Source of the DNA: Haloferax litoreum
GTDB taxonomy: Archaea; Halobacteriota; Halobacteria; Halobacteriales; Haloferacaceae
Assembly: GCF_009674605.1 (NCBI RefSeq)
Contig: NZ_WKJO01000001.1
Span: 744,001-808,000, forward strand
DNA length: 64,000 bases
Reading direction: 5' to 3'
The translations under genes and the position numbers were made by a program. The notes under the pieces were generated by a model. The model did no database searches. It was not told where the DNA came from and saw nothing but the letters and a program-made list of their open reading frames with translations. Of the stretch, positions 6,904-15,784 are shown piece after piece. The first letter of the stretch is position 1. Each line of letters starts with the position of its first letter.

Positions 6904-7548
6904 ATGGAACCGAGTCGCATCGGTATTCTCGGCAGCGGAGACGTGGGACGAGCGCTCGGACGGGGGTTCGCTCGTCACGGGTGGGACGTGACACTCGGCA
7001 CCCGAAGTCCGGACGAACTTCGTGCGGAACTGGGGCCGTCCGAGGAGGGCATCGCCGTCGGGACGTTCGCAGAGGCCGCGGCCCACGGTGATGTGGTCAT
7101 TCTGGCCGTCCTCGGCGACGCCGCAGAAGCAGTCGTCGACATGGCTGGCACAGACACCTTCGCGGGGAAACTCGTCCTCGACGCGACGAACCCGCTGGAC
7201 TTCTCCGAGGGTGTTGCACACCTCTCCTTCGGCGGAACCGACTCCCTCGGTGAACGAATACAGGAGAAGCTCCCGGGCGCGTCTGTGGTGAAGTGCTTCA
7301 ACACTGTCTCGAACATTCAGATGGTGGACCCCGAGTTCGAGGAGGGAACGCCGCCGATGTTCATCTGCGGCGACGACGACGACGCCAAAGCGCAGACGGA
7401 GGCCATCCTCGTCGAACTCGGGTGGCCGGGTGTGATGGACGTTGGTGATATCACGTCTGCGCGGTATCTGGAGGCGCTCGTCCCCCTGTGGGTCCGCGTC
7501 GGGTCGAATCTGGGGACGTGGAAGCACGCGTTCAAAGCGGTGCAGTAA
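6904..7548 (+). CDS. npdG: NADPH-dependent F420 reductase family protein
   Basis: The 214-residue protein has the N-terminal dinucleotide-binding motif IGILGSGDVGRALGRGFARH followed by LGTRSPDEL, typical of F420H2:NADP oxidoreductases, which move hydride between cofactor F420 and NADP in the cytoplasm. Further support comes from the central DATNPLDFS and the late substrate-side motif VKCFNTVS. Haloarchaea make F420, so the reaction is plausible, but several paralogues exist in these genomes and the exact electron acceptor is not proven. It is followed by the tRNA-His region. Confidence 0.85.
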   Translation: MEPSRIGILGSGDVGRALGRGFARHGWDVTLGTRSPDELRAELGPSEEGIAVGTFAEAAAHGDVVILAVLGDAAEAVVDMAGTDTFAGKLVLDATNPLDFSEGVAHLSFGGTDSLGERIQEKLPGASVVKCFNTVSNIQMVDPEFEEGTPPMFICGDDDDAKAQTEAILVELGWPGVMDVGDITSARYLEALVPLWVRVGSNLGTWKHAFKAVQ

Positions 7549-7606
7549 GTGGTGTTGGCTGGGCAGGCACTGTGAGCGACTGTCACCCCGACGCCGTAGC
7601 GTAACG

Positions 7607-7614
7607 TATTTTAG
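7607..7614 (+). promoter_or_regulatory. TATA box of tRNA-His
   Basis: TATTTTAG lies about 33 bp before the mature 5' end of the tRNA. Confidence 0.5.
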
Positions 7615-7643
7615 TCGTAGCGGATTACAGATGGTTGCAGCGT

Positions 7644-7717
7644 GTCCGGGTTGGGGTAGTGGACTATCCTTCAGCCTTGTGGAGGCTGAGACGCGGGTTC
7701 AATTCTCGCACCTGGAC
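7644..7717 (+). tRNA. tRNA-His (GTG)
   Basis: The sequence folds into a full cloverleaf. The acceptor stem is TCCGGGT/ACCTGGA, the T arm is GCGGG-TTCAATT-CTCGC, and the anticodon arm is CAGCC-TTGTGGA-GGCTG with anticodon GTG. The D arm is short (3 bp), as in other archaeal tRNAs. The extra G at 7644 opposite the discriminator C at 7717 is the G-1 identity element of histidine tRNAs, here encoded in the DNA. CCA is not encoded. There is no intron. The 3' end is repeated several times downstream. Confidence 0.95.
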
Positions 7718-7806
7718 CTCTTCTACAAATTTCAGTCAGTGAGCACCGCGTAGCGTGTGCGAACCACACTGAAATTTGGTGTGAGGTATGACTGCGAAAT
7801 TGAACC
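7696..7806 (+). repeat. tRNA-His-derived palindromic module A
   Basis: The module starts inside the T arm of the tRNA gene (GGTTCAATTCTCGCA, 7696-7710). It closes with an inverted, slightly deleted copy of the same sequence (TGCGAAATTGAACC, 7793-7806). Within it are perfect 11-bp arms CAAATTTCAGT (7726-7736) and ACTGAAATTTG (7768-7778). At the centre is a small hairpin in GAGCACCGCGTAGCGTGTGC (7741-7760). The nested symmetry suggests an RNA or cruciform structure directly 3' of the tRNA; it may also act as the tRNA terminator. Confidence 0.7.
7741..7762 (+). repeat. 22-nt element shared with the tRNA-Pro trailer
   Basis: This 22-nt stretch (GAGCACCGCG followed by TAGCGTGTGCGA) is identical to 15400-15421 downstream of tRNA-Pro. 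It can form a small hairpin. A shorter match (GAGCACCGCG) occurs at 7943-7952. Confidence 0.75.
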
Positions 7807-7880
7807 AGTGAGCAACTTGTTGCGAACGAGGTTCACGCGAGCGAAGCGAGCGTGAGTACGTGAGGCGCCACCTCACGGCA

Positions 7881-7994
7881 TTCAATTCTCGCACCTAGAC
7901 CTTCTTCACATTCTCACCCTTCGAGCGTGTGCTCACGCCAGTGAGCACCGCGATACCCGTCTGAGAATGTGCGAAGTCCAACAAAGAGAATTGA
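7881..7994 (+). repeat. tRNA-His-derived palindromic module B
   Basis: It begins with a second copy of the tRNA 3' end (TTCAATTCTCGCACCTAGAC at 7881-7900), which differs from the tRNA by A for G in the acceptor half. It ends with the inverted sequence GAGAATTGAA (7985-7994). Inside are perfect 10-bp arms CACATTCTCA (7907-7916) and TGAGAATGTG (7962-7971), and a perfect 8-bp hairpin GTGCTCAC-GCCA-GTGAGCAC (7929-7948). The architecture matches module A although the arm sequences differ. Confidence 0.7.
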
Positions 7995-8026
7995 ATCAAG
8001 GAGCGAACGCTAGTGAGCGACCAAAG

Positions 8027-8065
8027 TTCAATTCTCGCACCTAGACCTTCTTCTCGCACCTGACC
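8027..8065 (+). repeat. Third and fourth partial copies of the tRNA-His 3' end
   Basis: 8027-8052 repeats the copy at 7881-7906 exactly (TTCAATTCTCGCACCTAGAC then CTTCTT). It runs straight into a shorter copy, TTCTCGCACCTGACC (8051-8065), lacking one base of the acceptor segment. Repeated tRNA 3' ends are the usual footprint of integrase attachment sites, but no integrase gene is present between the copies. Confidence 0.65.
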
Positions 8066-8111
8066 TGCCCAGACCCACAAAACACATACACAGTTAGTTT
8101 GACATGAACGT

Positions 8112-8486
8112 GTGAAATCGGTTACACGGGTTCTCGTTCTCGCGGTCGTACTGCTCTCTACCGGGTGTCTCGGTGTCCCGCCCACGGCCGAGCAGACGCA
8201 GACGACGACGTCCGCGACAGCGACTCCAACACCAGCGGCACCGATAAGCGACGAGGAGGCAATCGAGCGAGCGACAACGTATCACGAAGCACAGATACGA
8301 GACAACATCGACGACGACGAGTACGACGTGGGGCGTCCGACTACACAGGTCACGAATCGAGCGGAGAATGGTGTGTACGTCGAGGTGGAGCAGGGATACT
8401 CGCGCACGAGCGATGGGGTTAGAGTAAACCATTTGACAGAGTCAAAATACTTCGTCAACGAGACGACTATTCGGCAGATATACTGA
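8112..8486 (+). CDS. Small lipoprotein of unknown function
   Basis: Starting from GTG at 8112, the 124-residue product has a basic N-terminus, a hydrophobic helix and a lipobox (LSTGCLG, cysteine near residue 19). It should be exported and lipid-anchored on the outer face of the membrane. A short threonine/alanine-rich linker follows, then an acidic domain of about 80 residues (EEAIERATTYHEAQIRDNID and onward) with no motif I recognise. It lies just after the tRNA-derived repeat array, so it may be accessory. Confidence 0.75.
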   Translation: MKSVTRVLVLAVVLLSTGCLGVPPTAEQTQTTTSATATPTPAAPISDEEAIERATTYHEAQIRDNIDDDEYDVGRPTTQVTNRAENGVYVEVEQGYSRTSDGVRVNHLTESKYFVNETTIRQIY

Positions 8487-15377: not shown

Positions 15378-15784
15378 TTTTGACGCGAACGTGACATTCG
15401 AGCACCGCGTAGCGTGTGCGAGGCACACCAAGTACCTGGTGTGATGGCGGTCAGAACCCGAATCCCACCTGCGCCGTCGTCCGGAGGTGTTATCCGTGGA
15501 CAGAAGAGAAGGTGAGTAGGCGGCACGGTCAGCAGCACCTTTCAACCACCGTGGTTTCCACGTGTGGTCGTCGCTGACTGGCCTACCCCGTCTCTCTAAC
15601 AATCACGAGCGACGGCGCTCGTACATCCCGAAGACACTACACACAGAGCGTCAGGTACGTAACCAAGCCAGTCGACTCTTCGCCGAACTGTCCGTCGGGA
15701 GCGACCCCAGAGTGCGGTTCAGACTCGTGAGATTCTGGGCGACAAGTATATGTGGGGTGGTCCCATGCGACACAGTGTATCGCT
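15378..15784 (+). other. Intergenic region after tRNA-Pro
   Basis: About 400 bp without a convincing gene. It holds the shared 22-nt element (15400-15421) and a short palindrome CACACCA/TGGTGTG (about 15424-15442). It also has a TATA-like TATATG around 15747-15752 that should drive the zinc-ribbon gene at 15785. Short open frames here lack good composition or starts. Confidence 0.5.
15400..15421 (+). repeat. 22-nt element shared with the tRNA-His trailer
   Basis: Identical over 22 nt to 7741-7762; it starts 22 bp after the end of tRNA-Pro and can form the same small hairpin. Confidence 0.75.

Follow-up and report, generated by a model that had tools for sequence, protein, structure and literature searches.

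Palindromic cassettes carrying copies of the preceding tRNA's 3' end trail tRNA genes across the Halobacteria

The region downstream of the tRNA-His gene of Haloferax litoreum raises the question of how a sequence can go on reproducing, in both orientations, the 3' end of the particular tRNA that it follows. The gene lies in the window, the 64,000-nt stretch of DNA analysed here (G000:C1:744001-808000), which comes from a 3.56-Mb genome in a genus represented by 15 genomes. It is flanked on one side by an F420-dependent oxidoreductase-like gene and on the other by a small ORF, for which Pfam gave no match, followed by a MoCF/CinA-like gene; no integrase was recognised when these neighbouring genes were inspected. 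Inside the 400 bp of the tail, exact repeats of at least 16 nt are present far above chance, and an Rfam scan of positions 7400-8300 matched the tRNA alone and no other curated family.

The tail is an array of units, in which a direct copy of the tRNA 3' end (D) is followed by a hairpin (H1), an inverted half of the T-arm (D'), a structured cap and the next D (Table 1). The original prediction, made from the letters of this locus, had placed long copies of the tRNA 3' end at 7698, 7881 and 8027, which hold up as a 27-nt family of 81-100% identity, and a short copy at 8051; the perfect 10-11 bp arms of differing sequence that it described are likewise present. It had also proposed that inverted partial copies close two modules. 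Such copies exist, but the module boundaries were misplaced by half a unit, and each inverted copy is paired not with the preceding direct copy, as had been assumed, but with the next (7796-7806 with 7830-7834, and 7986-7997 with its partner in D2). Both of the D'/D hairpins enclose a cap with tandem G-A/G-A mismatches; that around cap 2 has a computed folding energy of -20 kcal/mol and is matched by the covariance model R1, described below, at G000:C1:751987-752035 (E 6.8e-10). Unit 1 includes an additional double hairpin, H3. In relatives, H3 also follows tRNA-Val, -Ser, -Leu and -Glu; its place is always between GGTTCA and the next D copy, and it could be a further small palindromic element having the T-loop copy as its site. 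Elsewhere in the window, a decayed tail lies behind tRNA-Pro(TGG) at 15378-15460, the corresponding tail of H. mucosum being intact; its hairpin GAGCACCGCGTAGCGTGTGCGA also occurs in the inner hairpin of unit 1 behind tRNA-His.

Table 1. Components of the tRNA-His tail, by position in the window.
Feature	Position	Strand	Evidence or remark
tRNA-His(GTG) gene	7645-7718	+	ARAGORN; Rfam RF00005, 46 bits
Parent of the D copies, last 23 nt of tRNA-His	7696-7718	+	ARAGORN, RF00005
Unit 1 trailer and hairpin H1 type A	7719-7795	+	arms compensate across species
H1 type A arms (perfect, 11 bp)	7726-7736/7768-7778	+	inner hairpin within 7739-7764
D'1, inverted tRNA-His T-arm half (GAAATTGAACC)	7796-7806	+	repeat and fold analysis
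Cap 1 (AGTGAGCAACTTGTTGCGAACGA)	7807-7829	+	closing pair GAACC/GGTTC (7802-7834); alignments A1, A2
H3, 45-bp double hairpin, GGTTCA on one side and D copy on the other	7836-7880	+	
D1, direct tRNA-His 3'-end copy	7881-7901	+	repeat analysis
Unit 2 trailer and hairpin H1 type B	7902-7985	+	inner hairpin 7929-7948
H1 type B arms (perfect, 10 bp)	7907-7916/7962-7971	+	
D'2, inverted T-arm copy (GAGAATTGAATC), partner 8026-8037	7986-7997	+	repeat analysis; R1 match
Cap 2 (AAGGAGCGAACGCTAGTGAGCGACCAAA), tandem GA/GA mismatches	7998-8025	+	
D2, direct tRNA-His 3'-end copy	8026-8047	+	repeat analysis
Partial D copy (TTCTCGCACCTGACC), array end	8051-8065	+	repeat analysis

The modules are present beside both tRNA-His and other tRNAs of Haloferax, and tRNA-His is no special case in its architecture. 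With the tRNA-His tail as nucleotide query, related pieces were recovered in all 15 genomes of the genus, and nearly all of the secondary matches inspected follow different tRNAs (Val, Ser, Leu, Glu, Gly, Asp and Arg); in one genome (G011), a sequence on another contig that nearly matches the tRNA-His 3' end is within an ORF and was left out of the counts. In the H. litoreum genome itself, around 30 of around 50 tRNA genes are trailed by direct and/or inverted copies, at least 9 nt long, of their own 3' end, frequently in the pattern [inverted T-arm]-A-NN-GA-GC...GC-GA-N'N'-[direct T-arm and acceptor strand]. Cassettes are approximately 90-190 bp in length, and for about 40% of tRNAs the tail is missing or decayed, with sister species differing. 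The same genome also hosts a series of palindromes in intergenic DNA, their cores being of the CGCTTCGCTCG type, situated between protein genes with no adjoining tRNA (L163, G000:C1:1255000-1256300); general haloarchaeal palindromes of this kind may be the source of the caps.

The wider distribution of the cassettes was surveyed with R1, a covariance model constructed from 16 rows of such hairpins, in three of which the right arms were hand-completed with T-arm consensus or mixed, and which served as a search model only. It returned 12-29 matches per genome in all 15 genomes of the genus, and had matches in 274 of 292 Halobacteria genomes, representing 74 of 77 genera; within the phylum, it matched 40 of 43 Halobacteria as against none of 204 genomes of other classes. 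Similarly, a pattern agnostic to the cap, GGATTYGAA N12-40 TTCRAATCC, was found in 37/43 Halobacteria and 2/204 others, when its reversed control matched a single genome. A stricter pattern returned Halobacteria exclusively from the GTDB collection, comprising Haloferax, Halogeometricum, Halobellus, Halorarius, Halomarina, Halegenticoccus, Halalkalirubrum and one unclassified Haloferacaceae bin. A tRNA 3' end lies 30-322 bp ahead in 70 of the 76 loci fetched. As for the six exceptions, two (L078 and L095) represent a single locus split by a 2-kb insert, one (L100) has a 28-kb element between the tRNA and the tail, one (L112) is at a contig end, and the remaining two adjoin tRNA sequence undetected by ARAGORN (part of a tRNA-Gly at L126, a tRNA-Leu-like sequence at L131). 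This class-wide recurrence behind around 30 tRNA species had been missed by the original prediction, as had the pairing of D' with the following D.

The ends of the cassettes are cognate to the adjacent tRNA. Direct copies match their own tRNA at 1172 of 1376 positions, compared to 743 ± 17 when tRNAs are shuffled, and the T-stem portion of D' does so at 316 of 480 positions across 96 units (shuffled, 244 ± 7.5, with a maximum of 268 in 2000). For its acceptor part, D' shows no excess over chance in these 96 units (78 vs 80), and the notion of D' as a copy of the whole tRNA 3' end was consequently dropped. A mobile element of fixed sequence is not supported, since the unit ends are the neighbouring tRNA's own sequence.

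Selection for structure, which the differing arms had originally suggested, finds support in compensatory changes. H1 arms vary between species with compensation, for instance CAAATTTCAGT/ACTGAAATTTG versus TACATTTCGA/TCGAAATGTA. Among 31 gapless natural sequences of the hairpin, 97.3% of cells are paired and 8 of 18 pairs exhibit two-sided changes, giving a covariation score of 0.312, against 0.144 when shuffled and no more than 0.068 in slid registers; the kinship of the sequences inflates the first of these comparisons but not the second. The cap stems also covary, with cap position 3 paired in 61/70 compared to 28 on shuffling, and the GA tandems within caps are swapped jointly for A-T/G-C pairs. 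Tandem GA/GA is present in 72/72 units, partly by construction, as the search expression required it; an independent survey based on the T-arm only found it in most units, with some lacking it. The original prediction had named a lack of compensation and of related modules in relatives as grounds for abandoning it, and instead the stems covary and the units are class-wide.

Covariation of the stems would also be expected were the tail to function at the RNA level, as part of the pre-tRNA, with H1 and the D'/D hairpin shaping 3'-end formation, termination or processing, conceivably as an attenuator-like switch in which D' pairs with its own T-arm until the downstream D sequesters D'. The tandem GA/GA is an RNA-like motif, and the position of D' opposite G53 is in the majority of cases (52/84) a U.G on the tRNA strand, which would be A.C on the opposite strand; furthermore, hairpin termination with two 3' ends has been reported behind tRNA-Pro of H. 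volcanii (PMC7237163). However, although G.T departures outnumber A.C overall (76 vs 22), 52 of the 76 are at that one fixed position, without which the two are nearly equal in the T-arm stem (24 vs 21). The asymmetry was therefore rejected as proof of RNA from the tRNA strand, one position driving the excess, and by this measure RNA and DNA are indistinguishable. Further evidence against such a function is that around 40% of tRNAs do without an intact tail, with differences even between sister species, that the T stretch of an intrinsic archaeal terminator is almost missing near these tRNAs (T5 within 150 nt downstream of just 4 of 144), and that no Rfam family corresponds to the tail. An RNA-level role is judged rather unlikely.

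Whole units have been gained or lost. Between two sister species (G002 and G001), a single 142-bp unit is present in one and absent from the other, the difference extending from T-arm to T-arm with flanks identical at 413 of 420 bases; another pair (G008 and G013) differs by two units. Tandem amplification is evident from the four identical 111-bp units in a row behind tRNA-Lys of G052, the two identical units behind tRNA-Gly of G205 and the three similar units behind tRNA-Met of G015. An apparent tandem duplication of tRNA-His in one relative (L017) contains an N and was treated as an assembly break. The orthologous Leu-TAG tails of G015 and G021 have H1 in common but different caps, and a single cap, with the core GGAGCTTTGCTCCGACC, follows the tRNAs for Leu, Trp and Arg in these two genomes within arms cognate to each tRNA. 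In a sample taken by hand from the cap-agnostic pattern survey, 17 pairs of loci whose caps are over 80% alike fell within genomes, compared to 5.7 on permuting the genome labels (maximum 14 of 2000).

The unit boundaries at the T-loop, and the indel between L014 and L015 that spans from T-arm to T-arm, would suit a non-autonomous element mobilised in trans by a recombinase acting on folded single strands, whether attC-like or HUH-type, with the T-loop as its recombination site. The hairpin, with its two T-arm halves in inverted orientation and its conserved unpaired bases, has a form compatible with this, and an archaeal XerA has been reported to bind stem-looped att sites (PMC8371274). By contrast, the cognate ends mean that a move to a different tRNA would break that tRNA, and a linked recombinase gene was recognised only at those inspected loci that harbour integrated elements. 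The cassettes are also absent from the viral contigs and the phage and plasmid collections searched: two cap-specific patterns for a free attP counterpart gave no IMG/VR matches, and one query of the phage and plasmid collections no cassette match. Mobilisation in trans is thus judged improbable.

Integrative elements do occur at some tails. In H. mucosum (L165/L166, G010:C11), tRNA-Pro and its tail lie on either side of a ~28-kb element that bears genes for Orc/Cdc6 and a tyrosine integrase, and in H. marinum (L095:1300-3470) a ~2-kb insertion behind tRNA-Gln, encoding an N-terminal integrase fragment and a 209-aa protein without a Pfam match, has a copy of the same tail on each side. The direct repeats of a tRNA 3' end that characterise attachment sites are supplied by the D copies, but integrase-bearing elements were found at such repeats only at these other tRNAs, with the element lying ahead of the tail, and not at tRNA-His. 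The idea that the copies are debris of attachment sites, left as direct repeats by repeated insertion and excision, draws on the resemblance of D copies to attR sites and on these two real elements; it was already weakened because of the inverted copies and caps, and is very improbable given that none of 15 Haloferax species has an element between its tRNA-His copies, all within ~500 bp, that neither inverted copies nor covarying caps nor perfect tandem arrays are created by integration, and that around 30 tRNAs share the architecture class-wide. An att array alone was, as originally suspected, insufficient. The tails can be displaced by, or can serve, ordinary integration, yet are not its product, and repeats of tRNA 3' ends in haloarchaea should not be taken as proof of integrated elements.

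The explanation tentatively favoured here, at somewhat under an even chance, is that the tail is a member of a family of non-coding palindromic cassettes found across the haloarchaeal class, confined to the 3' side of tRNAs and maintained by recombination between D repeats. Arrays would grow, shrink and swap cassettes through recombination or template switching at these 20-30-bp repeats. Because a strong hairpin is flanked by D' and D, the region is expected to fold as single-stranded DNA or RNA, and the fold would be the thing maintained, the T-arm arms being kept complementary through selection or hairpin-templated repair. Caps would spread among the tRNAs of one genome, and the cassettes would require no protein of their own; the D copies would preserve the tRNA intact, with integrative elements received secondarily. 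Turnover, decay and the lack of coding content are best explained by a repeat propagated in this manner at the DNA level, although the class-wide conservation of the cap motif exceeds that expected of a purely neutral repeat and counts against it, as does the fact that neither an enzyme nor a mobility event was observed. The chances are about even that this constitutes an undescribed genetic element, one whose ends are built from the host tRNA, as direct and inverted T-arm copies around a structured cap, which grows in arrays and whose caps spread between tRNAs while its ends remain cognate, across a whole archaeal class.

A structured repeat that accompanies over half the tRNA genes of one Haloferax genome, and is found class-wide, would represent a new layer of archaeal tRNA 3'-end biology if it acts at the RNA level, or a new route by which small palindromes persist and spread if at the DNA level. 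Many 'partial tRNAs' may be explained by such cassettes. Among open-access papers, no description of the family was found, and it seems to be undescribed. The tRNA-targeting integrative elements, with their tyrosine recombinase att sites, are alike in having direct copies of tRNA 3' ends, a boundary at the T-loop and tails separable by real elements, but the cassettes differ in their inverted copies, structured caps, tandem arrays and class-wide occurrence, most loci being without an integrase. The attC sites of integrons are imperfect hairpins of variable sequence with conserved shape and unpaired bases, repeated in arrays of cassettes. The likeness is by analogy one of a way of working, through shape-conserved hairpins in arrays; the cassettes described here differ in that their arms are tRNA-derived, and no integron integrase or cassette genes were seen at the inspected loci.

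Partial tRNAs or tRNA remnants beside full copies have been noted in H. gibbonsii LR2-5 (PMC7921747), in an account the main text of which mentions no palindromic unit, caps or recurrence. The haloarchaeal MITEs, SMRs and PATEs (PMC3119063) are also small, non-coding, palindromic repeats, but these have terminal sequences of their own and varied targets, whereas the cassettes have the ends of the neighbouring tRNA and are found in tRNA tails only. Termini specific to the element and common to different sites, as would define a MITE, are not seen, as the arms and D follow the adjacent tRNA; the D copies resemble a long target-site duplication, yet span from T-arm to trailer, and H3 lies between GGTTCA and TTCA. 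In Methanopyrus kandleri, about half of the tRNA genes are immediately followed by palindromes (PMC5217627). These consist of one fixed motif, CGTTA N9 TAACG, reported to be specific to M. kandleri and with no tRNA copy reported, whereas the haloarchaeal cassettes carry copies of the tRNAs that they follow.
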